A stretch of 64,000 nucleotides of DNA from Bacillota bacterium (GCA_013178125.1 JABLXJ010000054.1:1-64000); one strand, 5' to 3'. Counted from the stretch's first letter, positions 11,901 through 31,070 are shown. The notes: generated by a model from the letters alone, not told the origin. Translations and numbers: made by a program.

Positions 11901-14393
11901 ATCATAGAACGGAGATCAGATATCCTCTATTCTATCGACTATGACCGCGGCATCTTGACGTTCGAGGAGATCATCCCTGAATTCGACGTCCGCGGCAACC
12001 CGGTCTACATTAACGCAAGCTATGAATTCAGGCCAGCCTCCGTTGACAAGGGGGGAATATCGGGCATCGGCGTCGCCGCAAGACTCAACGGTGGTCTCAC
12101 GGGTGGAGCTGTATATGTCTGGGGTGCGAGCACCCGAGATGAAAACGCAGCTCAAGGCGCGGCTCAGGGCATGGATGCCGCTCCAGCCCGGGCTCTCCTT
12201 ACAGGTATATCCCTGAGGCCTTCCGACGTGTTTCAGCTCGCAGGCCGGTATGCCATAACATCCAGCCCGGCGGCATCGGCGGCATCATGCTCTGCGTCAG
12301 GCTTTACACCAGGCCTTACATCAGGCTCTGCAGGCTCCACAGGCTCTGCATCCATCTTTGCATCGGGCTTCGATATCCGGGCCGATCTTAATCTGCCGCC
12401 TTTGACAGGATCAATCGCCTATCGCGCCCTGGAGCCGGGCTTCGATAGAGATAATCTCCTCGGGGGGATACCCGAGGAATTTGGAGGCGTGGGCGGGGAT
12501 ATAAATCAGGCTCCAAGCTGGGGCTATAGCATAATCCCCTATTATACAAGCGAAGATCGGAATACTACAAAGGAGGCCTCCCTGTCACTCATGTACGATC
12601 TTCCTGGTGATCCCGCCGGTCCCAATCTCCTCACAAATCCCAACCGCTCTATGAGCAGGGGCTCTACGAGCAAGGATTCGGATAACGGCCTGAGCTCCTC
12701 ACGCCCAGGCCTATCAGCCCCCTGCCTTTTACGCCCGGCACTTTCGCTAGGTTATAAGATGAAGTACGTGGAGTATGCGGCGAGCCCTGCCGCGATAGAA
12801 GATGGGGTGGAAGATAAGGTTGAAGGCGGCGGAACCGGCGAAGAAGAAATAGCCGGCACCACTGAAACGACAGAATCCATTGTAGCGACGGCGTCCTGTG
12901 ATATCGCGTCCCTCAAGCTCCAGGTGGAGGCCGAGACCGGCAATATGTTGCGATATCGACACAGCAGTCCGGCGGCAGGACCAACAGGCGATAACGGCGA
13001 TGGTAAGACTACCTATTTACCTACGCCGGCCTCGCCTATTTCAGCCTTACCCATGTCAGCCGCCAGCCTAGGCGCTTCCAACTCAGGCTCTTCCAGCTCG
13101 CGCGCCTTCACAGCATTGAGCTGTACCATCGACTACCCAGGCAGCGCGCTGGCGCCGGTATCGAAAGGCGCACCAAACAGCTCTGCACCAAACGGCTTGT
13201 CCTTTCGCATCAAAATCGGGTCGCGCATCACGACCTATCCCGGGCCGGGCCATATAGACTCCTCGAGCACGGGCACGGCCCTCGGATCGGGAGGTAGTGC
13301 CCATCAACCTGGCTGTGGGGAGCACGGGATGGCCTTCAGAGAGCCCTTTAGAGAGCGCGAGAACACCCTTGAACTCCAGGCCCGGAAGCCACTCCGCCCC
13401 TGGCTCGCGGCGAACCTGGTACAGAGGTGGGAAGCGAGGCGCGGGGCTCACACATCCCTCACCGCTCTCGGCCTGGATGTGACACCCAGCCCCCGTGTCA
13501 CCGCGGCCATGCGCTACGAGATGGAAGCCCAAAACCCCGCCGCAGGACCAGGATCCAAGCAACAGGGGCAATGTGATGAGTCCCCATCCAATAGTACGGC
13601 CCACTTTCGTGATACCCTGCGAGTAAAGGTGACTGCAAAAGACAGCACCAGAAGCGGGATAGAAGCCAGAATCGAAGGTTCCATAACAAGATCGCGAAAA
13701 TCAGGGACGCCAGCTCCGGCACCGGCACCGGGATACGGCACCAGTGGCACCAGCGGCATCAGTGATATCAATGACATTCAAGAGCCGTGCAATATACAGG
13801 ACCCTTCCGGGGCTGAGGTCGACCTCTCCGCGGCCGTCGAATACATTCCTTCCGGGTCGGGCGATTTATATGCCTCGGCTTCCCTGGGGTACAGGCTCAG
13901 GCCGGACCTCGAGCGGCGTTCATTTGCCCGCATCGAAGGCGCGGCCCACCCAACGCCAAGGCTAACCCTGAGTGCAAAATATATATACAAATTAGTAGAG
14001 GACTTAGAAGCCTTGACAGGGGACCCAACCCCCGAGATATCTAAAGGTAGTGAATACCATAAAGGCTACGGAACCCATGGAATTTACGGCGGAACCTACG
14101 GAAAAACCTACAGAGGCTGGGGGAACCCCACGGTCCTCACGACCGCTTGCTTGGCCCGCGCGGATTACAGAATCTCGAGGGATGTTGCCCTGGCCGGCGA
14201 ATATCGCCTCGCATCCCAGATACCGACCCAGGGCAGCGCGGCAAACCTCTGTCTCGAAACCATACTGGATAGGTGGGACCCCTTCAGGGTGATCATAGGA
14301 TATGCCTCCCTGCGGGGTGAAGGCTCAATTGCCCCTGAATACCTCCGCCCCGAGGGATTTTATCTCAATCTCTTCCTAGGGCTCAGTCACTGA
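8907..14393 (+). CDS. Giant multidomain surface / putative outer-membrane protein
   Basis: 1828 aa; GGAGGG six bases before ATG 8907. A membrane segment is at about residues 59-80. The order after it is: the FGELTP module shared with the 6150-6839 product; a FlgD-type Ig domain (SPNPFNPEIHG, then NGTGISGESLPDGTYTYVI); a carboxypeptidase-regulatory-like domain (SISGTVRDSISGAGLASAGV); a DUF11-type domain (VHVKNMGPELFNNVVVKVAP); an SdrD-B-like domain (LFHDANGDGQRQPAEEPI); then from about residue 950 a long beta region. This last part contains ISGPYQLKQGAIIPGTEEI, YSIDYDRGILTFEEIIPEFD and NPVYINASYEF, a pattern found in outer-membrane-barrel proteins, and it ends with an amphipathic strand (GFYLNLFLGLSH). 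Many Ser/Gly/Pro inserts interrupt it. No TonB box or plug domain is seen. Confidence 0.7.
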   Translation: MSLVGMPITVEHRCGRDHCMLKPPCRLESPFSGKDFKKGIFQKAFQTKTLKTKTLQPMLAIWTLIWVLIVLVVASPAIYAYSLGLDIDKVHADFGELTPEGSPYIFPCAAELSVISTLNGWSISTRAEGNLAASGLPGLPVERLKWAFHSSEGTPVWMPFTESDTPVLVNQPATSTKGRAIPLDYRLDISWQDPLTTPTSGPYKVNLVYTASPGYLAMSYASPNPFNPEIHGNITIGFYVPGRVPPVPELAGISIFDASGNLASKITGNMINPNTWDSFAWNGTGISGESLPDGTYTYVIATHAGRWLASGLIIIDRTASAGGEAGAASISGTVRDSISGAGLASAGVRLYKASGRQVSQARAGEGGIFTFSGIPQGRYFIEGRHEGYIPSRTREFYVETAGAISRNIELRPNTDIFVGATLSPGIASAGDIVTLTVHVKNMGPELFNNVVVKVAPARGLYYLASTSRLLENGRSNGRRSNGGSGNLTEHGNRQNKNTRATVTSPQLNALVRSNGATLEWLIGALPPGEQRTLVCKVAVGMDARMNARESEPSIVTRVSACGYSPTRRVDSIPVTAPLRVARGVVSPDGTIVGHLFHDANGDGQRQPAEEPIKNAAVMLEDGSTARTDNNGIFVFRNVVPGTHALQLQTGDILQLRTADPGTGRIEAWKSACIIWGHGGHTGGRHTGNPTSINDSRGDGGNNGIRPARNSMFANVSPGGTALVDFAITGPFVAPETAPEPEHGPEPETKPGLRGLRELYALHARDLHDPCGCHIKNLFGLASIEATFPTGDWGETGDGPGLGAAEIPTIPIKTRLALDLGIAIADTPWLYRGIPQETSQTVPSLNNTTPDDSSQMAPNQGLGLISHVSLDTAKPGAGIAGELQARTQNSKFELRFGEFPTQGGSIRGGIGSYRFQSRVQPWLTPTPSPESNPESEPKPAPEPTPDTQLTVFHGLRSTVRQHDLIKGANISGPYQLKQGAIIPGTEEISLEVRPRDGGGIIERRSDILYSIDYDRGILTFEEIIPEFDVRGNPVYINASYEFRPASVDKGGISGIGVAARLNGGLTGGAVYVWGASTRDENAAQGAAQGMDAAPARALLTGISLRPSDVFQLAGRYAITSSPAASAASCSASGFTPGLTSGSAGSTGSASIFASGFDIRADLNLPPLTGSIAYRALEPGFDRDNLLGGIPEEFGGVGGDINQAPSWGYSIIPYYTSEDRNTTKEASLSLMYDLPGDPAGPNLLTNPNRSMSRGSTSKDSDNGLSSSRPGLSAPCLLRPALSLGYKMKYVEYAASPAAIEDGVEDKVEGGGTGEEEIAGTTETTESIVATASCDIASLKLQVEAETGNMLRYRHSSPAAGPTGDNGDGKTTYLPTPASPISALPMSAASLGASNSGSSSSRAFTALSCTIDYPGSALAPVSKGAPNSSAPNGLSFRIKIGSRITTYPGPGHIDSSSTGTALGSGGSAHQPGCGEHGMAFREPFRERENTLELQARKPLRPWLAANLVQRWEARRGAHTSLTALGLDVTPSPRVTAAMRYEMEAQNPAAGPGSKQQGQCDESPSNSTAHFRDTLRVKVTAKDSTRSGIEARIEGSITRSRKSGTPAPAPAPGYGTSGTSGISDINDIQEPCNIQDPSGAEVDLSAAVEYIPSGSGDLYASASLGYRLRPDLERRSFARIEGAAHPTPRLTLSAKYIYKLVEDLEALTGDPTPEISKGSEYHKGYGTHGIYGGTYGKTYRGWGNPTVLTTACLARADYRISRDVALAGEYRLASQIPTQGSAANLCLETILDRWDPFRVIIGYASLRGEGSIAPEYLRPEGFYLNLFLGLSH

Positions 14394-14493: not shown

Positions 14494-14522
14494 TTGACAG
14501 GGATAAATAAAGAAATTATAAT
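14494..14522 (+). promoter_or_regulatory. Consensus sigma-A promoter for the toxin-antitoxin pair
   Basis: TTGACA (14494-14499) and TATAAT (14517-14522) are separated by exactly 17 bp. The expected transcript start is near 14529, so the leader before ATG 14546 is only about 17 nt and contains little more than the ribosome site AAAGGAGGTGG. Confidence 0.85.
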
Positions 14523-14545: not shown

Positions 14546-14860
14546 ATGGATAGGCTATTGACGCCTGAAGAAGTTGCGAAGCGTCTCGCTGTTAGCCCTA
14601 AGAGCATTCGTGAGTGGCTCAGAAATGGCAAGCTCAGAGGGGTTAAAGTGGGGAGACTCTGGAGAATAAGCCCACAAGCCCTAGATAGGTTTTTGAATAA
14701 CCCCGATATGTCATATGATGCAGAAAAGGGAACAGAACGAAAAATGGTTGAGGCTGGCCACTTCCGGGAATATACGCGTAAAGAGATTCGCGATTTTTTG
14801 AAGGCAGATAAGATCGGCCCCGAGATCGCCCGTAAAGTGGAGAAATTACTCGAGCCATGA
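14546..14860 (+). CDS. Excisionase-family HTH protein, probable antitoxin
   Basis: 104 aa. The N-terminal 52 residues are a MerR/excisionase-type winged helix (LLTPEEVAKRLAVSPKSIRE, then GVKVGRLWRISPQALDRFL). A C-terminal segment with FREYTRKEIRDFLKADKIGPEIA may be the part that contacts the toxin. AAAGGAGGTGG precedes the ATG. It overlaps the PIN gene by four bases (ATGA), the usual arrangement of a translationally coupled toxin-antitoxin pair. It would be expected to bind its own promoter (14494-14522), though no operator repeat is obvious. Antitoxin role is inferred from the neighbour. Confidence 0.75.
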   Translation: MDRLLTPEEVAKRLAVSPKSIREWLRNGKLRGVKVGRLWRISPQALDRFLNNPDMSYDAEKGTERKMVEAGHFREYTRKEIRDFLKADKIGPEIARKVEKLLEP

Positions 14861-15324
14861 CTCAGAAATCAAACCACAAGAGGCTCAGGGTGTTCTTGGA
14901 TGCAAGCTGCTGGGTGGCGGCAGCTGGCTCTCCTACTGGAGGCTCCGCCCTCATTCTCAAACTGGCGCGACGTGGGTATTTACAAATTATAGCCACTAAG
15001 AGGATACTACTTGAAGCAGAGCGCAACATAAATAGCAAGATGGCCGCAAAAGCCTTGTTACGTTATTATCAGGAGCTGGGAGCTACAGAAATCGAGCTCA
15101 CAGACCCTCCAACCACAGAAGAGGAAGCTCGATGGCGACATCTGGTTGATGAAAAGGATTGCCATGTGCTGGCTGGGGCGTTCAGAGCTCATGCAGATGT
15201 ATTAGTTAGTCTAGATAGGCGGCATATATTGACGGAAAAGGTGGAAAAGGGATTTCCTGTAACCGTCATGGGTACCAATAGCTTTTTGAGGAGATTCGTA
15301 GATGAAATAAGCAGGTTAAAATGA
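14857..15324 (+). CDS. PIN-domain ribonuclease, probable toxin
   Basis: 155 aa. The four acidic positions expected in PIN nucleases can be placed: D in VFLDASCW near residue 15, E in RILLEAERN, D in VDEKDCHVLAGA and D in VLVSLDRRH. These coordinate divalent metal for RNA cleavage in the family. ATG 14857 overlaps the stop of the HTH gene. VapC-type toxins are usually 120-145 aa, so this one is slightly long. No terminator is seen after it. Which RNA it cuts cannot be said. Confidence 0.8.
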   Translation: MTQKSNHKRLRVFLDASCWVAAAGSPTGGSALILKLARRGYLQIIATKRILLEAERNINSKMAAKALLRYYQELGATEIELTDPPTTEEEARWRHLVDEKDCHVLAGAFRAHADVLVSLDRRHILTEKVEKGFPVTVMGTNSFLRRFVDEISRLK

Positions 15325-15585: not shown

Positions 15586-16488
15586 CTACGCCTTCACTTC
15601 GATTTGAGCAAGCTTCTCATAGAAATTGACAATAGCGCCGTGATCGTTCGAGCCCTTGCCATCCACCTTTAGAGCTTGGAGGATCTCCATAACAGCCGCC
15701 GTCAGGGGCACGGGCACTCCAACCTGGTGAGCGGTCTCGAGCACATTCGCCAAGTCTTTGATATGGAGGTCGATCTTGAAGCCGGGGTCAAATTTGCGCG
15801 CCATCATGAGGGGGGCCTTGGTATCAAGCACGTTGCTGCCAGCAAGGCCTCCACGGATGGCATCATATACAAGCTTTGGCGATACCCCGGCCTTTGTGGC
15901 CAGCACGAGCGCCTCCGATACGGCGGCGATATTCAACGCAACGATGATCTGGTTGGCCAATTTAGTGGTGTTGCCGCTCCCGATATCCCCAACGCGCACC
16001 ACGCTCTTGCCCATGCACAACAGCATGTCGCGATATTCCTCAAAGTCCTTCTCATCACCGCCGACCATTATCGAGAGCGTGCCCGCTATCGCCCCCGGCT
16101 CACCACCGCTCACAGGAGCATCCATCATCCTGATGCCCTTCTCCTTGGCCTTGGCTGCAACTTCCACGGATACCAGAGGGGCTTTTGAGCTCATATCGAT
16201 GATGATCGAGCCCGGCTTCGCCCCCTCCAAAACCCCGTTCTCACCGAGCACCACCTGCTTGACGTGGGGTGAATTCGGGAGCATCGTTATAATAACCTCG
16301 GTCTTCTGGGCGACTTCCTTGGGGGACTTTGCCGCCTCCGCGCCCAGCGAAACAAGTTCCTGGACAGGGGCAGGGTTGATATCATATAATACGAGTTTAT
16401 ACCCTGCCTTGATAAGGTTCTTCGCCATCGGCTTCCCCATGATCCCGAGCCCAATGAAGCCGACTTTGGAGTTTATTGTTGGTGACAT
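15586..16488 (-). CDS. 2-hydroxy-3-oxopropionate (tartronate semialdehyde) reductase family, copy 1
   Basis: 300 aa member of the beta-hydroxyacid dehydrogenase family (GarR/GlxR/MmsB), which reduces a small 2- or 3-oxo acid with NAD(P)H. Seen: Rossmann motif GFIGLGIMGKPMAKNL, substrate-binding MDAPVSGGEPGA, the catalytic Lys segment GNTTKLANQII, and the C-terminal IDLHIKDLANVLE. GGGGGA lies six bases before the ATG. It is the last gene of the catabolic run and follows the YHAH protein copy 1 by 78 bp. A similar pair occurs at 21088-23050. Substrate cannot be fixed; tartronate semialdehyde would fit the aldolases upstream. Confidence 0.85.
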   Translation of the reverse strand: MSPTINSKVGFIGLGIMGKPMAKNLIKAGYKLVLYDINPAPVQELVSLGAEAAKSPKEVAQKTEVIITMLPNSPHVKQVVLGENGVLEGAKPGSIIIDMSSKAPLVSVEVAAKAKEKGIRMMDAPVSGGEPGAIAGTLSIMVGGDEKDFEEYRDMLLCMGKSVVRVGDIGSGNTTKLANQIIVALNIAAVSEALVLATKAGVSPKLVYDAIRGGLAGSNVLDTKAPLMMARKFDPGFKIDLHIKDLANVLETAHQVGVPVPLTAAVMEILQALKVDGKGSNDHGAIVNFYEKLAQIEVKA

Positions 16489-16566: not shown

Positions 16567-17433
16567 TTACTTAAATGCAGCGACTACCTCTTTCACCTCG
16601 TCATCGGTCAGTGGCTGGAAGTTCCCATCAGCAAGAACTTTATCATACATAGGCCACGTCCAGAGATCGAAGCCCGGTGTTCCAAGGACCCATACATCTT
16701 CGCTCGGCTTTATCGTGACGTTCGGGTTGTAAACCCAGCCGATATCAAACATCTTTTCAGGGTTGCCGATCAGGTAAACGATCTTGCCCCTGTATTCGCC
16801 GTGGACGTCGAAGACGCAAGGTACAACCTTCTCCACCGTCCAGCCGATCTTGGCCAGGGCCTCATTCGCAAGAAGCTCGAGGATCTTGGGATCGAAGTTG
16901 ATCTCAACATACCCGTGGCAATGCGTGACGTTATCATCCACGGTATACTCCAGAGTCTTCTTCCAGTGCCTCGAAAGGAAGTAATTGCGGATTTCCTTCT
17001 CTTCACGCGGCCCTACGCACTTGAAATTGAATTTGCTCAGGAAATTATCCTGATAGCTCTTACCCCATGAGAGGAGATTTGACCCGTGCTCGGCCTCTTT
17101 GGCCGTCGGCGGCATGGGCTCCAGCACCGCATTGGGGTTGAATCGGAAGAAGAAATCAAAGTGCGGCATACCAAAAGGATGAATTCCATGAAGGCCCGCG
17201 ACGTTCGGCTTGGGCGATGTCAGGTCGATCTTACGATCGAGGTCCCACCCCTTAGCCTTGAAGTACCCCTCCATAACCTTCATTAAAGAATCAGGGTGGA
17301 TAGAAGTATCGACATAGACATGGGCGTGGTAAATCTCTTCCTTAGGCTCCATTAGGTGTCCAGTAATGAAAGTGTTCCACTGTTCGCCATTGAAATAATC
17401 GACGACACCCTTTACTACATCCTTCCTCGACAT
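16567..17433 (-). CDS. Uncharacterised YHAH protein, copy 1 (DOPA 4,5-dioxygenase-like?)
   Basis: 288 aa, GGAGGT nine bases before ATG. No sure family. The N-terminal part has YHAHVYVDTSIHPDSL and, about 45 residues later, LHGIHPFGMPHFDFFFRF. This spacing and wording resemble the YHAHVYF...GPHP...F core of DOPA 4,5-dioxygenase-like proteins. A second half looks like a repeat of the fold: HCHGYVEINFDPKILE with GEYRGKIVYLI. Between them is WGKSYQDNFLSKFNFKCVGP. The conserved His residues suggest metal binding. A paralogue lies at 22163-23050, and each copy is followed by a GarR-type reductase, so the pair likely act together. No signal peptide is seen; cytoplasmic. Enzyme role is inference. Confidence 0.5.
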   Translation of the reverse strand: MSRKDVVKGVVDYFNGEQWNTFITGHLMEPKEEIYHAHVYVDTSIHPDSLMKVMEGYFKAKGWDLDRKIDLTSPKPNVAGLHGIHPFGMPHFDFFFRFNPNAVLEPMPPTAKEAEHGSNLLSWGKSYQDNFLSKFNFKCVGPREEKEIRNYFLSRHWKKTLEYTVDDNVTHCHGYVEINFDPKILELLANEALAKIGWTVEKVVPCVFDVHGEYRGKIVYLIGNPEKMFDIGWVYNPNVTIKPSEDVWVLGTPGFDLWTWPMYDKVLADGNFQPLTDDEVKEVVAAFK

Positions 17434-17475
17434 TGCCTTTCTACCTCCTATTTTCCATAATCTTGACTTTGATTC

Positions 17476-18384
17476 TTATGACCCTACAACCACGGAGAGA
17501 CCCAACTCTTTCAGGATTTCAATCAGCTTAACCCTCGCTTCACCAGCTATCCTGCCCACGGGGCTGCGCGCCGGCCCGGATGGCCAACCTATCAGGTTCA
17601 TGGCTTCCTTTACCACTACGGGGAAAGACGCTAAGCCAAAGGCATTCCTCAAGGGAGCCAGCGTTCGCTGGGCCCGCAGTGCCCCCTCTATATCCCCCTT
17701 GATAAAACGCTCATAGATTTCTACGACAAGCCTAGGGGCCACATTAGCAGTGGCCGCGACCGCCCCCTTACCGCCATATACAAGCACAGCCAGGATCTGA
17801 GTATCTCGCCCGGCCAAAACTGCGAAGTCATCGCCGGTGAGGCGGATGAGCTCCGAGGTCTGGCCTAAATCCCCGCTGCTATCTTTTATGCCTATTATGT
17901 TATCTATCTTAGAGAGCCGCTTCACGGTCTCAGGCTTGAGGTTTACTCCTCCAGTGCGTCCTGGGTTATTGTAGAGTATTATAGGGAGGGCTGTCGCCCC
18001 AGCTATGGCCGTATAATGTTCATATAATTCATCCTGAGATGGATATATGTAGTAGGGGGTGATCACGGAAACGCAATCTACTCCGATTGATTCGGCCATC
18101 TTGGTAAGCTTGATCGCCTCCCGGGTCGTGGCGCCCCCAGTCCCAGCGTAGACGGGCACCTGGCCCCCAACCTCCTCAACGGCTATTTCGAGAATCCTGC
18201 GCTTCTCCTCCATATCAAAGGCCCAAAACTCCCCCTGGCTCCCCAGCGGAAAGATGCCGTGGACGCCGGCATCAATCATGAGATTGCATACCCGGCGCAG
18301 ACCTTGTTCATCAAGTTCTTCACTATCAGTCAGGGGGGTAACGATAGGCGGGATTATCCCTTTGATCTCCAGCTTCCCTCTCAT
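17476..18384 (-). CDS. DapA/NanA-family lyase or aldolase
   Basis: 302 aa TIM-barrel enzyme that works through a Schiff base on a 2-oxo acid. Seen: GIIPPIVTPL, the GxxGE motif as PLGSQGEFW, the tyrosine region ITPYYIYPSQDELYEHY, the YNNPGRTG segment and the Schiff-base lysine in IGIKDSSGD. AGGAGG is ten bases before ATG 18384, better than the TTG at 18393 which touches the ribosome site. Neighbours are a cyclase-family hydrolase and a hydroxyacid dehydrogenase rather than lysine genes, so a catabolic 2-oxo-acid aldolase or a 5-dehydro-4-deoxyglucarate dehydratase-like role is more likely than dihydrodipicolinate synthase. Confidence 0.82.
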   Translation of the reverse strand: MRGKLEIKGIIPPIVTPLTDSEELDEQGLRRVCNLMIDAGVHGIFPLGSQGEFWAFDMEEKRRILEIAVEEVGGQVPVYAGTGGATTREAIKLTKMAESIGVDCVSVITPYYIYPSQDELYEHYTAIAGATALPIILYNNPGRTGGVNLKPETVKRLSKIDNIIGIKDSSGDLGQTSELIRLTGDDFAVLAGRDTQILAVLVYGGKGAVAATANVAPRLVVEIYERFIKGDIEGALRAQRTLAPLRNAFGLASFPVVVKEAMNLIGWPSGPARSPVGRIAGEARVKLIEILKELGLSVVVGS

Positions 18385-18419
18385 TGATTGCAAGCCTCCT
18401 GATATGTCTTGTAGAGCCT

Positions 18420-19076
18420 CTACCTTTCCTCGATCGCAATAGCCCTAACGGGGGAGCTATCGAGGCCCTTAATCTTGAGTGGAAGCGCTATAAAATAACA
18501 TTGCTTCTTCCTTAGCTCGTTCATATTCCCAAGGACTTCTATCAAAAGCACATCCTTGCTCAAAAGCACATCATGTGCCTCGCGCGCGGCTCCCTTGCCA
18601 TCCCCCGTGCAGAACGATGTATCAAAGCCGAACATCTTGACCTTCTTATCAACAAGCCACTTGGCCGCCTCGAGCGTTAGGTAATGGCGCTCGGCCGGCA
18701 CCGAGGGCTCAGGACGCTTGCGCGCCAGGTTGCGCAAGAGCACGACCTCTGTCTCGCCGATGACGTCACCTATCGCGGCCTCAAAGACTGCAGGGGTTAT
18801 CGGCTGGTGATAATCTGGAAAGTCGATATCCACCACCGCGGCCCTGCCCATATAGTGGGTGACGTCTAGATCCGTAACATCCTTCCATTCCGCCACGAAA
18901 TGCGAGGGGGCCTCGACGTGAGTACCGATATGGCTCATGGTATCGATCTCGAACATATAGGTATCATCGGCTTCTATGGTTTTCCGCCGTATCTCCATAC
19001 GCCGCTTTTCCTGGCCTGGCACGACCATAACTGAGAGATCAACTACCCTGTATTTTGCCAAGTCTATGTTAAACAT
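18420..19076 (-). CDS. Cyclase / kynurenine-formamidase-like metal hydrolase
   Basis: 218 aa, AGGAGGC six bases before the ATG. It belongs to the cyclase family (PF04199): DLSVMV near the start and the metal motif HxGTHxDxPxH present as SHIGTHVEAPSHF, where the usual Asp is Glu. A second conserved region is FGFDTSFC. Members hydrolyse formamides, lactams or lactones and often sit in small catabolic operons. Here it lies between the DapA-like lyase and the hydroxyacid dehydrogenase with gaps of about 30 bp, so one transcript is expected. The Glu for Asp change may affect metal or substrate choice. Substrate unknown. Confidence 0.78.
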   Translation of the reverse strand: MFNIDLAKYRVVDLSVMVVPGQEKRRMEIRRKTIEADDTYMFEIDTMSHIGTHVEAPSHFVAEWKDVTDLDVTHYMGRAAVVDIDFPDYHQPITPAVFEAAIGDVIGETEVVLLRNLARKRPEPSVPAERHYLTLEAAKWLVDKKVKMFGFDTSFCTGDGKGAAREAHDVLLSKDVLLIEVLGNMNELRKKQCYFIALPLKIKGLDSSPVRAIAIEER

Positions 19077-19105
19077 CTACCTGCCTCCTAAATACCTATA
19101 AGTAT

Positions 19106-20098
19106 CTATGGGACATGCCTGGTCTGTTCATTCCACCCCTTAAATACCTGGGGGTTGACCACAAATTGCGGCCTCTTGCCAAGGAGCACATCCCTGACTC
19201 CCTCCGCCGCCCCCGTGGCCATCCTGATAACCGCCTCCTGCGTAAGGGCTCCCGAATGAGGTGTGAGGATCACGTTATCCAGTTTGAGCAACGGGTTATC
19301 GGGGTCAGGTGGCTCTTTTTCGAAGACATCCAGCGCCGCCCCGGCGATCCGCCGGTTGGTCAGGGCATCTATAAGAGCAGCCTCCTCAACGGCCCCACCG
19401 CGCGCAGCATTTATCAAAAATGCGGTTGGCTTCATAAGGGCAAGCTCACGTCCTCCGATGAGATTGCGCGTCTCATCCGTCAGAGGGAGGTGCAATGATA
19501 CAAAATCGGATTCTCTTAAGAGCTCGTCAAGGTCGTTGCACGGGGTGGCACCTATCTCAGAGATTTTCTCCGCTGGGACGTACGGGTCGTATGCCAGGAC
19601 TCTCATATCAAAGGCTGCCATACACTTCTTACAGAGCAGCCCCCCGATGCGCCCGACCCCAACTATTCCTAATGTCTTTCCATTGATATCGACCGCCCGG
19701 TATTCATTGCGAACGCCAAAATTGTCCTCACGCGTAGCTTTATCATAAGGCAGCAACACCTTAGCGAGGGCACCCATAAACATGATGACATGCTCAACTA
19801 CGGAGACTGCGTTTGCATTAGGTGTATATACCACGGGGATGCCCCTGGACGTAGCTGCTTCGACATCTATGTTATCGACGCCAACGCCGTGACGCGCTAT
19901 GACCTCGAGGTCTCTCGCTTTGTCAATTACCTCCGCCGGGAATGGCGCGGTCCGCACGATGGCGCCGTGGGCCCCATCTATCTCCCTCAACAGGGTTGGA
20001 ATAGATGGATCTGAAGCAACCTTAACATCAAAATATGGCTCAAGAACCTCGACGCCGCTTTCATGAATGGGTTGGACTATTAGAACCTTTTTTTTCAT
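19106..20098 (-). CDS. D-isomer-specific 2-hydroxyacid dehydrogenase (SerA-like)
   Basis: About 330 aa if started at ATG 20098 (MKKKVLIVQP). The frame is open to 20158, but the extra 20 residues are not family-like. Seen: ARHGVGVDNID, NAD-binding GIVGVGRIGG, catalytic Arg in INAARGGAV, Glu in FEKEPP and His in LTPHSGAL. Such enzymes interconvert 2-oxo and D-2-hydroxy acids with NAD(H). It has no C-terminal ACT domain, so a catabolic role is more likely than serine synthesis. It lies in the middle of the catabolic run, next to the cyclase and the IclR regulator. Confidence 0.85.
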   Translation of the reverse strand: MKKKVLIVQPIHESGVEVLEPYFDVKVASDPSIPTLLREIDGAHGAIVRTAPFPAEVIDKARDLEVIARHGVGVDNIDVEAATSRGIPVVYTPNANAVSVVEHVIMFMGALAKVLLPYDKATREDNFGVRNEYRAVDINGKTLGIVGVGRIGGLLCKKCMAAFDMRVLAYDPYVPAEKISEIGATPCNDLDELLRESDFVSLHLPLTDETRNLIGGRELALMKPTAFLINAARGGAVEEAALIDALTNRRIAGAALDVFEKEPPDPDNPLLKLDNVILTPHSGALTQEAVIRMATGAAEGVRDVLLGKRPQFVVNPQVFKGWNEQTRHVP

Positions 20099-20184
20099 AT
20101 TCTTTTCCAATGCTCCCATCGTAGTTGTGTGCTGCTGTGCCAGGTGACCCGTCCACAATAGCCCGCGATAGTTCCCAATAACCG

Positions 20185-21000
20185 CTAATAATCGCTATAG
20201 AACCCCATGACATGGGATATGCTATTCGCTGTCTCCCGTAACCGCACAGAGGCCTCTTTAAGTTCTTCGAGACTTATGTGAATCTCAAATGCGCTGAGGC
20301 TTACGCTCGCGATTATCCTCCTCGCACCATCCCTAATGGGGGCAGCGACGCAGTTGACGCCCGGTATATGTTCCTCGATATCCCACGCCAGTCCCTCATG
20401 GCGGACCTTTTCGAGTTCCTTCTTCAGCTCCTCGAGGGTGGAGATGGTCTTCTCGGTGTATTTCTTCAGGCCCCTAGTGTTTACTACACTCTCCAATTCC
20501 GCATCATCCAGCTCCGATATCAGGATCTTGCCAACACCTGTAGCATGAGCCGGTAACCTTCTACCTATATGGAAATACGTCCTTGGGACCTTCTCGCTTT
20601 CAAACCTTGCGATAGAGATTACTTCGCCCTGCTCGTATACGGCAAGGTTAACGTTTGCGGCGCGATACTCTCGCGATAAAGCCTCAAGGTAAGGCATGGA
20701 CTGCCTTCTTATCTCCATGGCATTAAGGGCGACCCTGCTGAGCTGGAGGACCTTTAGTGTGAGCTGGAACTTATTTGTAGACGGGTCCTGGGAGATGTAG
20801 CCTGCCTTTTCCATCGTCATCAGGAGCCTGAAAGCCATATTAGAGTTAATCCCTAGTTTATTGCATACCTCAGTGACGCCGATCTGCGGCCCATTCTCCC
20901 AGAAGCAGTCCAGTATCTGAAATGCCCTTTCAACTGTCTTTACCGTGTACTTATCTATGTCTTTTATGTCCTTATCCAGATCAATTGCCTGTTCCAACAC
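20185..21000 (-). CDS. IclR-family transcriptional regulator
   Basis: 271 aa from GTG 21000, where GGAGG is eight bases upstream; the frame is open to 21048. The N-terminal winged helix is VERAFQILDCFWENGPQIG with LGINSNMAFRLLMTMEKAG. The effector domain carries the usual HATGVGKILIS and GVNCVAAPIRD. IclR proteins usually control the catabolic genes next to them in response to an aromatic or hydroxy-acid ligand. Here it sits inside the cluster, between the second GarR-type gene and the hydroxyacid dehydrogenase, in the same orientation, so it could govern the 15586-20098 half. No operator could be assigned with confidence. Confidence 0.85.
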   Translation of the reverse strand: MLEQAIDLDKDIKDIDKYTVKTVERAFQILDCFWENGPQIGVTEVCNKLGINSNMAFRLLMTMEKAGYISQDPSTNKFQLTLKVLQLSRVALNAMEIRRQSMPYLEALSREYRAANVNLAVYEQGEVISIARFESEKVPRTYFHIGRRLPAHATGVGKILISELDDAELESVVNTRGLKKYTEKTISTLEELKKELEKVRHEGLAWDIEEHIPGVNCVAAPIRDGARRIIASVSLSAFEIHISLEELKEASVRLRETANSISHVMGFYSDY

Positions 21001-21087
21001 AAAGCCTTCCTCCCATGATATTTCGAGCATGGTCGCCCTGAGCTGCATTTCTACTTGTTATTTCCCATTTGTTTCTTCTCACTTGCC

Positions 21088-21996
21088 TTACTTGCTTCGC
21101 TTACGCACCTCTACCCCGGCGACCTGCTCAAATACTTTAATAATAGCGGATGCATCCTGCCGCCCGAGCCCCATCGCATTGGCCCACAAGAACACTTCGC
21201 GCGCGACAGCGCTCGTGAAGAGCGGCACATTTAACTCCTTGCCCGTCATCAAACAGATGTTAAGATCTTTGATCTGTATATCCAGAGCCCCCCTCGTGGA
21301 GAAATCCCCCTCCAGAATCGTGGGCATCTTGTCCTCAAACATCCAGCAGTTGCCCGCGCTCTTCCTGATGACCTCATACATGATCTCAGGATCGGCCCCT
21401 GCCTTGGTGCCGAGGACCATGGCCTCGCCGATGGCAACGAGGTGGACTGAAACGAGGAGCTGATTTGCAGCCTTCACGACCTGCCCGATTCCAATCTCAT
21501 TGCCGACCTTAATGGTGTTAGACCCAACTGCAAAAAGCGCGTCCTTGCAGGCCTCAAAGACATCATCGGACCCGGCGACCATCATGGTCAACGTGCCTGC
21601 CGCCGCGCCTCTCGCCCCGCCGCTTACAGGCGAGTCAAGGACGTTTACGCCCTTCGCTGCCGCGGCCTCAGCCACCTTTTTGATCTCCGATGGAGCAATC
21701 GTGCTCGTAACGATCAGGGTGCTACCCGGCTTCATCCCGGCCAGGACTCCGTCATCTCCGAAAGTGCACGATTCAACCTGGGGGAAATTGAGAACCATCA
21801 CGAATATTATATCAGATTTGGCTCCCACTTCCCTGGGGCTTGCTGCCCCACTCGCGCCGAGGCCTTTCAGCTCCTCCACGGGCTCCAGCCTGATATCATA
21901 GACTGTTAGGGGGAACCCTGCCTTCAAGAGATTTTTGGCCATCGATTTACCCATCGAGCCAAGGCCAATGAAGCCTATATTCTCTTTTATACTCAT
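21088..21996 (-). CDS. 2-hydroxy-3-oxopropionate reductase family, copy 2
   Basis: 302 aa, a paralogue of the 15586-16488 product. Seen: NIGFIGLGSMGKSMAKNLL, LDSPVSGGARGA, and the lysine segment GQVVKAANQLLV, followed by LDIQIKDLNICL. GAGGT lies seven bases before the ATG. The two copies differ through most of their length, so this is an old duplication or two independent acquisitions rather than a recent copy. It follows YHAH protein copy 2 with a 166-bp gap, repeating the gene order at the other end of the island. NAD(P)H-dependent reduction of a semialdehyde is the expected reaction. Confidence 0.85.
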   Translation of the reverse strand: MSIKENIGFIGLGSMGKSMAKNLLKAGFPLTVYDIRLEPVEELKGLGASGAASPREVGAKSDIIFVMVLNFPQVESCTFGDDGVLAGMKPGSTLIVTSTIAPSEIKKVAEAAAAKGVNVLDSPVSGGARGAAAGTLTMMVAGSDDVFEACKDALFAVGSNTIKVGNEIGIGQVVKAANQLLVSVHLVAIGEAMVLGTKAGADPEIMYEVIRKSAGNCWMFEDKMPTILEGDFSTRGALDIQIKDLNICLMTGKELNVPLFTSAVAREVFLWANAMGLGRQDASAIIKVFEQVAGVEVRKRSK

Positions 21997-22162
21997 AGGG
22001 TCTACCTCGCGCTCCCCTCTTTCAGGCCCGGTACGGGGGTATTATGTCCAATTGGCATACCCCGCCGCGATGCCTCTTAATTTACTCGTGTATGTTTTCA
22101 CCGCCAACAATACATAGTGCCAACGTGCATAGCGTTATTAAATAAATGAAATGGCTCCGGAC

Positions 22163-23050
22163 CTATTTGAACGAGTCTATCACAGCCTGGATTTCGACAT
22201 CCGAGAGCTTGATATATTCCCCGCCGCGAACCGCTGTGTCATCGAACATCTTTACCGTCCAGATATCAAACTCAGGATCATCCGTAAAGACGAACGTCTC
22301 GGTGCTGGGGCGGATCACGACATCGGGATTGAATTTCCAGGAGATATCAAATACCTCCTCGGGGTGGGCGAGGGAGTATGTGATCTTCCCGCGATACTCG
22401 TTACCGACCTTATAAACGCACGGAGTCGCGTTGCAGATCGTCCACCCGATCTCCTTCATGGCCTGGCGGGCGAATATGTCGAACACCTTAGGGTCGAAAT
22501 TGATCTCGGTATTGGTGTGGAAGTGCGAGATACCTTCCTTTTCCATATTCTCCAGGAGGTAGACCATCTTCTTCCATTGCCTACTATTCTTTATCCAGTT
22601 CAAGATCTCCTCTTCTTCATAAGGCCCCACACACTTGAATTCAAACTGTTTGAACCACTCATCCATATAGGACTTGCCCCACCAGATGAGGTTCTTCCCG
22701 CCTTCGCCCTGCGCGGGATCCATCGGCTTCAGCACCACATCACTGCTATACTTCCAGAACCAGTCGACCAGCGGCATGAAGCCTCTTGATCCAGGGTGTA
22801 TGCCGTGAAGGGCTGCCCTCCCGGGGCCCGGTCCAACATGGTCGATCTCACGATCCAGGATGAGCCCGTTCGCCTCGAGGTTAGCCTCGACAATGGGCTG
22901 GAGGCACCTGTAATCAACCTGGTTATCAACAAAGGCGTGGGCGTGATACACGGGCTCATCGGGGTTCTTCCACAGCTTGATGATTCCTTGCCAGTGGGGC
23001 GACTTGAAATAATCACCTATCTCCTTGACAATCGACTCGCGGCTTCGCAT
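22163..23050 (-). CDS. Uncharacterised YHAH protein, copy 2 (DOPA 4,5-dioxygenase-like?)
   Basis: 295 aa; GGAGG ten bases before ATG. Clearly homologous to the 16567-17433 product. Shared blocks are YHAH(V/A), LHGIHP, NL-x-x-WGKSY, F-FKCVGP-x-EE-x-EI, H-(C/F)-H then EINFDPK, IGWT, PCV and EYRGKI. The 'HIS' pattern YHAHAFVDNQVDYRCLQ plus ALHGIHPGSRGFMP resembles the DOPA 4,5-dioxygenase core. It differs in that the GIHP block is followed by VDWFWKYSSD rather than a string of Phe. Followed by GarR-type copy 2, preceded by tctA. Function unknown; co-occurrence with a reductase twice suggests sequential steps. Confidence 0.5.
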   Translation of the reverse strand: MRSRESIVKEIGDYFKSPHWQGIIKLWKNPDEPVYHAHAFVDNQVDYRCLQPIVEANLEANGLILDREIDHVGPGPGRAALHGIHPGSRGFMPLVDWFWKYSSDVVLKPMDPAQGEGGKNLIWWGKSYMDEWFKQFEFKCVGPYEEEEILNWIKNSRQWKKMVYLLENMEKEGISHFHTNTEINFDPKVFDIFARQAMKEIGWTICNATPCVYKVGNEYRGKITYSLAHPEEVFDISWKFNPDVVIRPSTETFVFTDDPEFDIWTVKMFDDTAVRGGEYIKLSDVEIQAVIDSFK

Positions 23051-23237: not shown

Positions 23238-24761
23238 TCAGGCTTCGGCATTTGCGTGGCCGAACCTACGCCTTACAGCTTCGATGATTCTACCCGTCAC
23301 CTTCGTCTGGCTCAATATGGCGTAAAGGATCAAAATATCTATGGCGATCGAAAGTGGCCTCGTGAAGAAGGGTAACAGGCTCCCGTTCGATGCAAGTAAC
23401 GTGCGCCGGAAATTCGTGTCGGCAAGGGGACCTAAAATTATCCCCAGCACAGTTGGTGCAACGGGGTACTTCATCCTGTCCATGAAATATCCTATTATAC
23501 CGAAAGCGAACATCACATAGAGATCGAACATATTGATATTTAACGCATAACTACCAATGACTGACAGGACTGCCACGATTGGCATCAGCATAAAGGCAGG
23601 GACTTGAAGCACCTTAGGCGCGACCTTGCAGATCAACCACCCAAAGAACCTCATGGTGAATGCCGCCAGTAGCAGCAGTGCACTCATATAGGAAATAAAC
23701 GTCGGGAACTCGAATGTCAGCATGGGACCTGGCCGAATTCCGTGAAGCCAAAGTGCCCCGAGGAGAACTGCAGTCGGTGCGCTTCCCGGGATAGCGAGGC
23801 TCAATAGGGGGATAAGGGCCCCACCTATAGCGGAATTATTACCAGTCTCGGGTGCCACCACGCCCTCATAGTCGCCCTTCCCGAATCTCTCAGGGTGTTT
23901 GCTGCTCCTGCGGGCTAGATCATACGACATCCATGCCGCTACATCTTCGCCGACCCCCGGGATCGCGCCAATCCAGACGCCAAGGAGGCCTGATCTCAGT
24001 ATCGTCGCGAGGTATCTCCTCAAGAGCATCATAACCGATGCGCCGCCCTTACCGACGCTCGCTACCCTGGCAGCCGCGTTTACCTTAGCCAATTCCGAAA
24101 GTATGCTGGGAATGCCAAACATCCCAATCATCGCCGGTACGAAAGCGAGGCCGCCCATGAGGCCAACGCTCCCGAAGGTGTAACGCGGGTACCCGTGAAT
24201 CCCCTCTAATCCTACACATGATGCTGCAAGGCCGATGAACCCCGCTATCCATCCCTTTAGGGGGATGCCTTGTGCCGTCAGGGAGCCACAGATCATAACA
24301 CCAAAGACAGCCAGTAGGAAGAATTCCGGGGATGTAAAATCCAGTGCGATTCTCTGTAAGAGCGGCGTGAAGCCCGCAAGGCAAACCATGCCAAACAACG
24401 TCCCCAGGAAAGAAGCGATAGTTGCCAGGCCTAGCGCTGTCCCACCCTCACCCTTCAAGGCCAGCGGGTGCCCGTCAAGCACTGTTGCTGCGGCGGACCC
24501 GGTACCAGGTATCCCAATCAAGACAGCCGATATAGATCCTCCGTAGATGGCTCCGACATAGATTCCCATCAGGACCACCAGGGCTGCGTCGGTCGACATC
24601 CCATATGTAAGCCCTGTTAAGAGGGCTATACCCATAGTGGCCGTCAGCCCGGGGAGGGCGCCGATAATTATGCCTGCTGTGGTGCTCACGGAGAGTAAAA
24701 GAATATTCTGCAGGGTTATTAGCTTCAAAAGCTCAGTGAATAGTGTTATTATCGCCGTCAT
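23238..24761 (-). CDS. tctA: Tripartite tricarboxylate transporter, large permease TctA
   Basis: 507 aa, about 11-12 hydrophobic segments, in the inner membrane. Family marks: LPGLTATMGIALLTGLTYGM, YGGSISAVLIGIPGTGSAAATVLDGHPLA near the N-terminus, the repeat-like PGVGEDVAAWMSYD and the later LAIPGSAPTAVLLGAL. TctA forms the channel for secondary uptake of carboxylates (citrate, tartrate, aromatic acids and others) delivered by a periplasmic or extracytoplasmic TctC. It follows tctB by 17 bp. Substrate is not readable from the permease. Confidence 0.93.
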   Translation of the reverse strand: MTAIITLFTELLKLITLQNILLLSVSTTAGIIIGALPGLTATMGIALLTGLTYGMSTDAALVVLMGIYVGAIYGGSISAVLIGIPGTGSAAATVLDGHPLALKGEGGTALGLATIASFLGTLFGMVCLAGFTPLLQRIALDFTSPEFFLLAVFGVMICGSLTAQGIPLKGWIAGFIGLAASCVGLEGIHGYPRYTFGSVGLMGGLAFVPAMIGMFGIPSILSELAKVNAAARVASVGKGGASVMMLLRRYLATILRSGLLGVWIGAIPGVGEDVAAWMSYDLARRSSKHPERFGKGDYEGVVAPETGNNSAIGGALIPLLSLAIPGSAPTAVLLGALWLHGIRPGPMLTFEFPTFISYMSALLLLAAFTMRFFGWLICKVAPKVLQVPAFMLMPIVAVLSVIGSYALNINMFDLYVMFAFGIIGYFMDRMKYPVAPTVLGIILGPLADTNFRRTLLASNGSLLPFFTRPLSIAIDILILYAILSQTKVTGRIIEAVRRRFGHANAEA

Positions 24762-24778: not shown

Positions 24779-25306
24779 CTACGGTAACGGTATCCTGGCG
24801 AATTTCGAAAAACCATAGCCGACCGCAACAGCCACCAAGACGGAGATTATCGCTATCTTCACGAGCGACGTCTTCCTGTCCCGGAAGATGGCCATGGTTG
24901 CAAACAAGAATATGAAGGTCGCGACCTCATATCGAATACGGCCCAGCATACCGAAGATATAAAGCACGATTAATGCAAGGGCGATAATCAGCCTCTGGAA
25001 TTCCTTCCCTCTGAAATATGCGGCCGCTCCCCTTAAATCCTCTCTTATAATACCACCGGATTCTAAGAGCCCGACCCGGAAAAGTAGCACAGCCTCCAGC
25101 ATGATGATGATCCCCACAAACGCAGGGAAAATGCCCGGGGCGGTATACATCCCCGCACGCGTTCCTGTGTACCGGACAAACTCTGCAACCGGCATCTTCA
25201 AGGCGCCTATAAGGAAGAGAAGTCCGAAGATGAACAAGAATACGCTCGTTACCAGATCGGCTTTTCGAAGCTTCCTGACATCCTCTTTATTCCCCACATT
25301 CTCCAT
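24779..25306 (-). CDS. tctB: Tripartite tricarboxylate transporter, small permease TctB
   Basis: About 175 aa with four hydrophobic segments (LVTSVFLFIFGLLFLIGAL; GIFPAFVGIIIMLEAVLLF; LIIALALIVLYIFGM; then FIFLFATMAIF and IISVLVAVAVGYGFSKF). GAGGTGG lies before ATG 25306. The longer frame, open to 25531, would overlap tctC and encodes nothing family-like, so it is rejected. TctB is poorly conserved but sits between TctC and TctA in these operons and ends in the typical LGxxLP-like FARIPLP. Confidence 0.85.
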   Translation of the reverse strand: MENVGNKEDVRKLRKADLVTSVFLFIFGLLFLIGALKMPVAEFVRYTGTRAGMYTAPGIFPAFVGIIIMLEAVLLFRVGLLESGGIIREDLRGAAAYFRGKEFQRLIIALALIVLYIFGMLGRIRYEVATFIFLFATMAIFRDRKTSLVKIAIISVLVAVAVGYGFSKFARIPLP

Positions 25307-25448
25307 GATGCCACCTCGCCTCATGTTTCTTTCGGGGTGCATTAAGGTCGATAAACCGGCCAGCTGGACTAGACAAGACCACCAGACCATTAGGAGAAGG
25401 CGACCGAGGTCGATTGTGAGGCCCCGGTCGCCCCCTGTGGCAGCCTCA

Positions 25449-26468
25449 CTAAGGTCTAGGTATGTTGAACTCTTCAGGTGATTTCTGCGCGAATCCCGCA
25501 TCATATAGAGTCCACGAGAAGACCGAGTCAAGCTGCTTCTGTAAGCTCTTCACCTTATCACCGTGTAGTCCGAACAATTTAAAGCCCATATTCTTCGCAA
25601 CATCAACAACCTCTTTGGATTTCATTGCTTTATCAAATGCGGCATGGTAAGCAGCTTTGATATCTTCAGGCGTATCATTTGGTAAAGCAATCCCGACCCA
25701 CTGCATAATGATAGGAAGCTTTTTGAAATCGGGATAGAAGTCGGCGATCGATGGAATATGCCCGTAACCTTCCAGGTCGGCACCTTCCCTCTCGATGATC
25801 GCAAGTGGACGCAGCTTCTTGGCAAGGATGTATTCCCTCTGCTCTGCAAGGGCGGTCAGGACGCAATCAACCTCATTGGAAAGCGCTGCGACCTGCGACG
25901 GGTGACTCCCCTCATAAGGTAGACGGTGGAACTTGACCCCTGCAGCCTCCTGGACCTGGATGAGCTTCAAGCTCCAGACGCTACCGGCCTGCGAGGCTGC
26001 TGCCTTTATGGTCTTTTTCTTAGCCGCATCGATGAGGTCCTGGAATGTCTTATAGGGTGATGACGCAGGCACTGATATGACGCCAGGGCTCCCCATTATC
26101 ATGAAGAGATCCCATACTGATGATGGTTTGTCAAAGACCCCGAGGACCGCCACGCCGTGGACCGTCTCAGATACCCCAAGAATCGTGTAGCCATCGCGTT
26201 TCTGGTTCCAGACATGGTTGGCGGCGACACCGCCTGAACCCCCGAGCATGTTCACGACCTGAAATGGAACACCCATCTCCTTCTGGAGTGCCTGGGCTAT
26301 CGCACGATTTGAAAGGTCTGTGGCCCCGCCCGCGCCGGCCCAGCATACAATCGTTACCGGACGGGTCGGTTTCCACGTCGCTGCGGAGGCAATGCCGAAG
26401 GCTGCAAGTATTAAGTCAACACAGATAAACAATCCGAACACAACTTTCTGATTAACGCTTCTGAACAA
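25449..26468 (-). CDS. tctC: Tripartite tricarboxylate transporter substrate-binding protein TctC
   Basis: 339 aa from TTG 26468, chosen because AGGAGG lies nine bases upstream (the frame is open to 26537). Residues about 7-29 form a signal peptide (VVFGLFICVDLILAAFGIASAA). The mature start WKPTRPVTIVCWAGAGGATD, then NMLGGSGGVAANHVWNQKRDG, then YEGSHPSQVAALSNEVD match the Bug/TctC solute-binding family. These proteins bind carboxylates through main-chain contacts and hand them to TctAB. It is the first transporter gene; a long leader of about 250 nt carries a promoter-like motif at 26717-26746. Confidence 0.9.
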   Translation of the reverse strand: MFRSVNQKVVFGLFICVDLILAAFGIASAATWKPTRPVTIVCWAGAGGATDLSNRAIAQALQKEMGVPFQVVNMLGGSGGVAANHVWNQKRDGYTILGVSETVHGVAVLGVFDKPSSVWDLFMIMGSPGVISVPASSPYKTFQDLIDAAKKKTIKAAASQAGSVWSLKLIQVQEAAGVKFHRLPYEGSHPSQVAALSNEVDCVLTALAEQREYILAKKLRPLAIIEREGADLEGYGHIPSIADFYPDFKKLPIIMQWVGIALPNDTPEDIKAAYHAAFDKAMKSKEVVDVAKNMGFKLFGLHGDKVKSLQKQLDSVFSWTLYDAGFAQKSPEEFNIPRP

Positions 26469-27051
26469 TTTGCCACTCCTCCTATCCGGGTTATTGATAG
26501 CTAGTACCCCACGCTGTGCCGGTTTGACATGGCACACTCCGGCAGTCTATCCACTTCTAGCCCCACCTACCACCCCCTTAAGGACGCGAATATAAAGCTC
26601 AAACTGCTGCCATCCACGCTTCCAAGTGATCCCCATGGGAAATGTCTACAAAGGTTCTATATCCCACGAAAGATTACCTATAACTCTTATATATAACTCT
26701 CGTCATTTCGAGATAATATTTCTATAAGTATTATAAAATTCCTGCCAAAAAGGTAAAAAAATTAAGGGGCATTTAATTAATCGATCCTATCCCAGCATCC
26801 ACTGTTGACCCGCTCCTACTGCCCCAAGATATCTACCATAGGATTCACTCTATATCATCTCTTTGCGATCAACTCCGGGTCATCCAACCCGATGACGGAC
26901 GCCCGACCTGGCGCATTCAGCCCTTCAAACACCCGAACACCTGAAGCTATAATTTATACTCTTCTAGACCCCAAAGTCGCCCCCGTGCAAGCTTAACAGA
27001 GACGACCTAGCCCGCTCGCTAACTGCCGGCTCACTTCCATCGCCGGCACCC
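26469..27051. other. Intergenic region before tctC
   Basis: No gene was found. The part near 26690-26770 is AT-rich and contains GGCAGGAATTT followed after 11 bases by TAGAAATA (minus strand, 26746 to 26717), a block that recurs in front of gntR and deoR. The rest (26780-27051) shows no conserved coding or RNA structure that I can recognise. Confidence 0.5.
26717..26746 (-). promoter_or_regulatory. Promoter-like block, copy 1 (before tctC)
   Basis: Minus strand GGCAGGAATTT, 11 bases, then TAGAAATA. The spacer contains TATAAT. Similar blocks with the same 11-base spacing stand at 28972-29001 and 61333-61362. Confidence 0.45.
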
Positions 27052-27831
27052 CTACCTCCCCAAGATCTGCTCTATATCTGCCACTTGCTTTGAAGCTATA
27101 TCGACTATCATGTTTATATCACTGGAGTAGGCTATAAGCCTCATGCCGGCCCCAACCCACTCCTTCACATCCTCCAGATTGAAGAGGTGCATGCCGGGAG
27201 CCACGCCGTATTTGTTGCAGACCTCAATCAGACGCCTGTAGGCTGCAACCATCTTGGGGTGCTTTATCTGGCCGGGAATGCCGTATGACTGCGACATGTC
27301 ATTCGGCCCGATGAAAGCGGCATCAACCCCCTGGATGTTCACCAGCTCATCCAGGTGTTCTATCGCACGCTCGCTCTCTATCTGGATGACTACAAGGGCT
27401 TCCTCGTTTGCGTGCCCCGTGTATTCAACGGTATCCACCTTCCTGTAGTCGCTGTGGAGGCGCCTCAAGGCGCACCCCCGCTCACCAAGCGGGTAATACC
27501 GCGTCTCCCTTACGATAGCCTCGACCTCTTCCCTCGTTTCAACCTGCGGGACCAGAATCCCGTCCGACCCCGCATCCAGCGGGCGGGAGAGCGAGCACCG
27601 CTCCATGCCTGGCGTCCTCACAATGGATTGGATGCCGGCCGCCCTGCATGCCAGGATCATATCCTGGACTGTCTCCATATTGAACGCTGAATGCTCCATG
27701 TCTATGAATATAAACTGGTATCCCGCCGTCGCCATCATCTGCGCGATGGCTGGAGTCCTCACCTCCGATACCATCGTCCCGATTACAACCTCGCCGTTTC
27801 TAAGCGCCTGCTTGATCTTGTTCTCACGCAT
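27052..27831 (-). CDS. HpcH/HpaI-family class II aldolase
   Basis: 259 aa; GGGGG nine bases before ATG. A metal-dependent (Mg/Mn) aldolase of the 2,4-dihydroxyhept-2-enedioate / 2-keto-3-deoxyglucarate aldolase type, which splits a 2-oxo-4-hydroxy acid to pyruvate and an aldehyde. Seen: FIFIDMEHSAFN, the arginine in VRTPG, metal-binding Glu in IQIESERAIE and Asp in FIGPNDMSQS. The residue block usually LVPQVETxEEA is present as ILVPQVETREEVEA. It lies between the GntR gene and tctC. If the aldehyde is tartronate semialdehyde, the GarR-type enzymes downstream would reduce it; succinate semialdehyde is the alternative for an aromatic pathway. Confidence 0.88.
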   Translation of the reverse strand: MRENKIKQALRNGEVVIGTMVSEVRTPAIAQMMATAGYQFIFIDMEHSAFNMETVQDMILACRAAGIQSIVRTPGMERCSLSRPLDAGSDGILVPQVETREEVEAIVRETRYYPLGERGCALRRLHSDYRKVDTVEYTGHANEEALVVIQIESERAIEHLDELVNIQGVDAAFIGPNDMSQSYGIPGQIKHPKMVAAYRRLIEVCNKYGVAPGMHLFNLEDVKEWVGAGMRLIAYSSDINMIVDIASKQVADIEQILGR

Positions 27832-28797: not shown

Positions 28798-28930
28798 AGT
28801 ATCCTGATCCTCCTGCTGAATTCTGACCGGGTTGACTGGGGAAACCGGTCGAATCCTGAAAATTGGGTGGATAATCGGATAAGTGGAGACTAATGATAGA
28901 GTAGTTATATTAATAGTCGGATTCCGGGAT

Positions 28931-28942
28931 ATTGTATCCAAT
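28931..28942. promoter_or_regulatory. Candidate GntR/FadR operator
   Basis: ATTGTATCCAAT is a near-perfect palindrome of the ATTG-TATA-CAAT type recognised by FadR-subfamily GntR proteins. It lies between the promoter-like block at 28972-29001 and the gntR start at 28797, which suits autorepression. Confidence 0.45.
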
Positions 28943-31025: not shown

Positions 31026-31070
31026 CACCATCCTCTCTATCACTGCGACCGCCCCTCGACCGCGCTCGCG

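Follow-up and report, generated by a model that had tools for sequence, protein, structure and literature searches.

YHAH, a rare and undescribed family of two-repeat proteins encoded in a putative carboxylate-catabolic cluster of a Bacillota bacterium

Introduction

Among described gene arrangements, the TctABC-type carboxylate catabolic operons come closest to the locus reported here. They bring together the same tripartite tricarboxylate transporter, dehydrogenases, a DHDPS-family enzyme and IclR or GntR regulators; in contrast to the present cluster, they have no known component of the kind that we call YHAH. Another described enzyme of the locus is GarR (NF008592; structure 1vpd), which adjoins YHAH in the DNA analysed here but not in Sinorhizobium.

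Two protein groups invite comparison with YHAH itself. Members of the vicinal oxygen chelate (VOC) superfamily, such as glyoxalase I, methylmalonyl-CoA epimerase and HPPD, resemble it in their two-fold repeat, in the E-H-E-E-E order predicted, at low confidence, for each module, and in an early His and a late acid per module. However, they carry a single His where YHAH has HxH, YHAH is predicted to have two extra N-terminal helices per module, and there is no sequence similarity. The bacterial DOPA 4,5-dioxygenases (DODA; PF08883, 2nyh and 2peb) share with YHAH a word at the first strand (WHAHVYFD in 2nyh, YHAHVY(V)D in YHAH), a later GxHP-like motif, present in two of the YHAH proteins, and a small-molecule context. 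However, DODA has one module and YHAH two, and YHAH is probably not O2-dependent.

Here we describe two paralogous YHAH genes in a stretch of 64,000 nucleotides from a Bacillota bacterium (GCA_013178125.1 JABLXJ010000054.1:1-64000; hereafter the window), compare them with a relative in Sinorhizobium meliloti, and weigh the possible functions of their products.

Results and Discussion

The YHAH proteins and their distribution

YHAH1 (A; 16567-17433) and YHAH2 (B; 22163-23050) are both encoded on the minus strand, start with ATG and comprise 288 and 295 aa, respectively. As the preliminary description had stated, the two ORFs are paralogous, with 43% identity along their entire length (E = 1e-82). 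An AGGAGG/GGAGG-like ribosome site precedes each of them, their third codon positions are G+C-rich, and their sequences show no obvious secretion signal. Neither protein matched Pfam or NCBIfam at E<=0.1 or the PDB at E<=1, and YHAH1 had no match in PHROGs at E<=1. The matches in PHROGs of YHAH2 (E = 0.22) and of the Sinorhizobium member (E = 0.05) were judged to be chance, as was the sole match of the family profile in the PDB, a GNAT protein at E = 0.15. The earlier suggestion of an undescribed family is thus borne out by the four collections, none of which gave an acceptable match, and YHAH1 is regarded as the founding member of an undescribed two-repeat family.

One further member was found, on the S. 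meliloti megaplasmid pSmeMABNR56a (C below), the only one of 72,556 plasmids to carry a YHAH gene. It shares 38% of its residues with YHAH1 and 31% with YHAH2, in alignments that cover 98% of their length. Searches with profiles or proteins covered 17 genomes of the window's class, 398 sampled from its phylum and 83, 4, 1, 399 and 13 of further classes, and gave credible matches in the window's own genome only. A match in genome G360 at E = 0.0025, short (126-198) and within a 541-aa frame, was gone at E<=1e-5 and was judged to be chance. Genome contigs, by which phyla beyond the window's own were sampled, were scanned with single sequences, which reach close relatives only, and yielded no relatives; none was found in viral contigs or in phages either. 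The YHAH proteins are therefore a real, undescribed and, within the collections sampled, rare protein family. A congeneric genome (G003) has neither YHAH nor TctA, suggesting that YHAH is likely to have been acquired horizontally.

Parts of the DNA flanking the Sinorhizobium gene recur in S. medicae plasmids, but only pSmeMABNR56a matched at least 80% of the query. A transposase-like ORF, IS256-type by eye, lies nearby (L005:19759-20958).

Internal repeat and invariant residues

The preliminary description held that the second half of the protein repeats the first, and both alignments and profiles agree. In YHAH1 the repeats span approximately residues 1-136 and 137-288. Local alignments of the two halves lie 11.4 sd (A) and 12.8 sd (C) above shuffles, with none of 1000 shuffles reaching the observed value, and 4.4 sd above in B, where 3 of 1000 do; a profile-profile comparison of the family halves gives E = 3e-14.

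Alignment of the six half-proteins leaves six invariant residues, as judged from three full sequences, i.e. six modules: H36/H171, H38/H173, G62/G197, P86/P225, D93/D230 and P106/P243 (YHAH1 numbering). Apart from a Gly and two Pro, these make up a His-x-His and an Asp 55-59 residues downstream. The YHAH motif itself is invariant in all three members, whereas the His of the GIHP motif falls outside the invariant set: the Sinorhizobium protein reads GIEP, and the position is Asn, His or Thr in the second repeats. Because two His and one Asp are kept in each repeat while the identity between repeats drops to ~20%, the HxH...D set suggests a candidate symmetric, duplicated metal site. One such set per half also provides defined residues for mutation.

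Gene context in the window and in Sinorhizobium

All genes of the cluster lie on the minus strand, where they are read from 28941 to 15586. The first encodes a GntR/FCD regulator (28090-28941), followed by an HpcH/HpaI-family class II aldolase (27052-27831; PF03328), which is HpaI/GarL-like but below cut-offs; it is located 514 bp upstream of tctC and possibly belongs to the same pathway as the YHAH cluster. Next come the genes of a tripartite tricarboxylate transporter: the solute-binding protein TctC (25449-26537; PF03401), TctB (24779-25531; PF07331) and the large membrane subunit TctA (23238-24761; PF01970, 455 bits). The TTG ORF of tctB overlaps tctC, and its true start probably lies inside that ORF. 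Downstream of TctABC, YHAH2 is followed by GarR2 (21088-21996), an IclR-family regulator (20185-21048; PF01614/PF09339) that is PcaR/KdgR-like but below cut-offs, a PGDH-like D-2-hydroxyacid dehydrogenase (19106-20158; PF02826/PF00389), a PF04199 cyclase/arylformamidase-like metal hydrolase (18420-19076), for which the NCBIfam arylformamidase model is below cut-off, a DHDPS-family lyase/aldolase (17476-18393; PF00701, 286 bits; TIGR00674, 254 bits), YHAH1 and GarR1 (15586-16488). YHAH1 thus lies in a run of closely spaced genes downstream of the transporter, and the intergenic gaps of 26-78 bp from GarR2 through GarR1 are consistent with one operon.

The cluster is bordered upstream by a 614-aa ORF (29199-31043), with an ATPase_2-like N-terminal part (below cut-off) and a C-terminal Mrr_cat-like nuclease domain, which separates it from ilvD. 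The latter is part of a complete-looking branched-chain amino acid operon (31071-41340, minus strand), read by eye from the translations as ilvB, ilvN, ilvC, leuA, leuC, leuD, a citramalate-synthase-like gene and ilvD. On the other side, a PIN-domain ORF (14857-15324) on the plus strand runs towards GarR1, and a perfect sigma-70-type promoter match, TTGACA-17-TATAAT, is found upstream of it at 14494-14522. Farther out, a 1828-aa ORF (8907-14393) contains DUF11/carboxypeptidase-regulatory-like repeats, and its C-terminal stretch recalls by eye an outer-membrane barrel, which would fit a diderm host. A transposase-like ORF at 994-1455 appears by eye to be a DDE-type remnant.

In the Sinorhizobium plasmid, a 49-kb stretch holds relatives of the window's genes within ~22 kb of YHAH: two D-2-hydroxyacid dehydrogenases (37-38% identity), which flank the YHAH gene, TctA (34%), a DHDPS-family protein (27%) and a GntR regulator (30%). 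This conservation concerns one independent locus, and at 27% the similarity of its DHDPS-family protein is low. As controls, eleven 50-kb stretches from elsewhere on that plasmid (550 kb together) were compared: TctA and such D-2-hydroxyacid dehydrogenases are absent from them, DHDPS genes number two and GntR matches three. The Sinorhizobium region also encodes TctB, TctC, an RraA/LigK-like aldolase, an Ldh_2 dehydrogenase, a galactonate-dehydratase-like enzyme and a PCC-domain protein, and an SsuA-like sulfonate transporter adjoins the YHAH gene. Both contexts point to the uptake and degradation of a hydroxy- or oxo-carboxylate. The earlier notion of an enzyme of carboxylate catabolism accordingly gains support as probable, with TctABC, 2-hydroxyacid dehydrogenases and DHDPS-family proteins at both loci.

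The GarR-type neighbours

A 6PGDH/HIBADH-type dehydrogenase follows each YHAH gene on the same strand, as had been noticed: GarR1 starts 78 bp after YHAH1, just outside the range 16567-23050 that the preliminary description covered, and GarR2 166 bp after YHAH2. The arrangement had been read as a duplicated module in which YHAH and GarR form a substrate-product pair. Judged by its scores, GarR1 is a true tartronate-semialdehyde (2-hydroxy-3-oxopropionate) reductase, since it passes the equivalog cut-offs (NF008592, 494 bits against 397; TIGR01505, 433 against 341) and is 66% identical (193/294 residues) to 1vpd, a solved GarR. GarR2, by contrast, belongs to another branch of the HIBADH superfamily. 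It is below every curated cut-off, with 277 of 397 bits for GarR; its best NCBIfam model is L-threonate dehydrogenase (ThreonDh; 294 of 350 bits), and its nearest PDB entry is 3cky, a 2-hydroxymethylglutarate dehydrogenase.

The bit scores are 423 for GarR1 and 1vpd, 233 for GarR2 and 3cky, and 214 for GarR1 and GarR2. Both dehydrogenases thus score higher with a protein from elsewhere than with their counterpart in the cluster, so that YHAH and GarR were not duplicated together and GarR1 and GarR2 were recruited independently. In addition, no GarR homologue was found in the 30.8-kb locus or the 49-kb stretch around the Sinorhizobium gene, the sole independent locus, so that a conserved YHAH-GarR neighbourhood did not emerge. 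The duplicated module was consequently rejected, and the proposed substrate-product pair is left unsupported. Two adjacent gene pairs need not be a duplicated module; here the constant partners of YHAH are other genes.

Proposed function

Building on the paralogy of the two genes, their internal repeat, the HxH...D set invariant in six modules, the operon context and the neighbourhood shared with Sinorhizobium, we propose that YHAH1 and YHAH2 are cytosolic two-repeat metalloenzymes catalysing an O2-independent step on a 2-hydroxy or 2-oxo acid imported by TctABC. We give this proposal slightly less than an even chance; that the proteins bind metal, are catalytic, do without O2 and act on this class of substrate is our inference. 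The family would have arisen by tandem duplication of a module of ~110-140 residues, and the HxH strand motif and downstream Asp of each repeat may bind one divalent metal, or two, at the repeat interface. TctABC would import a small hydroxy- or oxo-carboxylate, and YHAH would act in its catabolism by metal-assisted hydration or dehydration, isomerisation, or C-C or lactone cleavage, all without O2. The D-2-hydroxyacid dehydrogenase might then interconvert the product or substrate of YHAH, the DHDPS-family enzyme might cleave it, and GarR1 would reduce a tartronate-semialdehyde-like end product.

A search for haem-copper oxidase subunit I (COX1, PF00115) matched 8 of 14 control genomes but no genome of the window's class, of which 17 were covered; such an absence does not prove an anaerobe, cytochrome bd being outside the search. 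The absence makes O2-dependent ring opening in this host doubtful. S. meliloti is an aerobe, and with the window's class lacking COX1, an O2-free step would suit both hosts.

Fold and alternative readings

Structure models were made from window sequences only, using a two-sequence alignment for the full-length protein and a four-module alignment for the single module. Their pLDDT values were 46 and 57, respectively, and Foldseek returned no significant match for either. One concrete fold for the proposed metalloenzyme, which we consider unlikely but worth keeping in view, is that of the VOC enzymes, as in glyoxalase I, methylmalonyl-CoA epimerase and HPPD. With the same low probability, YHAH would be a VOC-like epimerase, lyase or dehydratase of an oxo or hydroxy acid, built of two beta-alpha-beta-beta-beta modules whose first strands each supply a His, and whose fourth strands each supply an acidic residue, to a single metal site. 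The full-length model (pLDDT 46) predicts the E-H-E-E-E order in both modules, and VOC enzymes (hydroxymandelate synthase, methylmalonyl-CoA epimerase, glyoxalase I, GLOD4 and HPPD) are frequent among its top 50 PDB matches, all of them weak. However, every one of these fold matches has E>=0.16 and comes from a model of that pLDDT, and the single-module model gave neither VOC matches nor any consistent match. In YHAH, 55-59 residues separate His from Asp, close to the ~50 between His and Glu in each module of glyoxalase I; an hhalign profile comparison with glyoxalase I nevertheless remained within shuffles, and VOC membership by sequence was rejected on this ground.

Compared with the VOC fold, a tandem-duplicated relative of PF08883 is a less probable reading, and a quite unlikely one. 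YHAH would then use O2 to open a catecholic or enediol compound, and GarR would reduce the semialdehyde so formed. Beyond the first-strand word, an hhalign comparison of the N-terminal half with 11 DODA sequences (2nyh, 2peb and nine plasmid homologues) gave a probability of 69% and E = 4.5e-5 for a single comparison, with a score of 33 against a shuffle maximum of 19. The confident match spans just 29 columns around YHAHVY, however, and the family was chosen after the motif had been seen, so that the single-comparison E-value overstates the case. A forced global alignment places GIHP on GPHP, FD on YQ/FE, VLEP on VLxHP and WGKSY on WIGHSH, in the same order. Against this, PF08883 had no match in the Pfam scan, nor in the window's own genome even at E = 10; the best shuffles attain HMMER scores as high as the 7.9 bits of A and the 7.3 bits of C, and no PF08883 profile score exceeded 25 bits. 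The second half has no match to the DODA profile, and 2nyh and 2peb are not among the 50 structure matches listed for the models, whose pLDDT (46 and 57) is too low for a decision on the fold. HxH is invariant but the GxHP His is not, being Glu in the Sinorhizobium member; the absence of haem-copper oxidase in the host class and of GarR beside the Sinorhizobium gene also weighs against this reading. Of the DOPA-dioxygenase resemblance first noticed, the short YHAHVY word stands, PF08883 gives no match and the GIHP His is not conserved; the link is suggestive at best. Kinship of YHAH with DODA is possible on these alignments; ring opening with a semialdehyde passed to GarR is doubtful, given the lack of COX1 in the 17 genomes, and the module argument for it fails at the loci compared.

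Only slightly less probable than the DODA reading is that YHAH has no catalytic role and binds a carboxylate or a metal for the operon, as a sensor, storage protein or chaperone; the lack of any recognised catalytic family would agree with this. However, two HxH...D sets are kept in divergent paralogues, and YHAH sits among enzymes, not beside a regulator. Finally, we regard it as very improbable that YHAH is an unrecognised lyase (C-S or C-C) in a pathway resembling that of sulfolactate, in which the TTT transporter and paired D-/L-hydroxyacid dehydrogenases would act like SlcHFG/SlcC/ComC. The Sinorhizobium locus might recall such a pathway with its 2-hydroxyacid dehydrogenase, RraA-like gene, TctCBA, SsuA-like sulfonate transporter and Ldh_2 enzyme, which among NCBIfam models scores best with L-sulfolactate dehydrogenase (293 bits against a cut-off of 500). 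However, all those models are below curated cut-offs, and dehydrogenase pairs with TctABC are found for many hydroxy acids.

Conclusions

Returning to the proposed metalloenzyme, a bolder form of it is tentative and on balance improbable. YHAH would represent a new family of metalloenzymes whose double HxH...D site is pseudo-symmetric, catalysing an unrecorded O2-independent step on 2-oxo or 2-hydroxy carboxylates, with two specialised paralogues in one operon and rare horizontal spread between distant bacteria. If YHAH is a metalloenzyme, it would account for a step in carboxylate catabolism that has no annotation and escapes present profile libraries altogether, and the candidate substrate class would be small and open to a simple genetic test.
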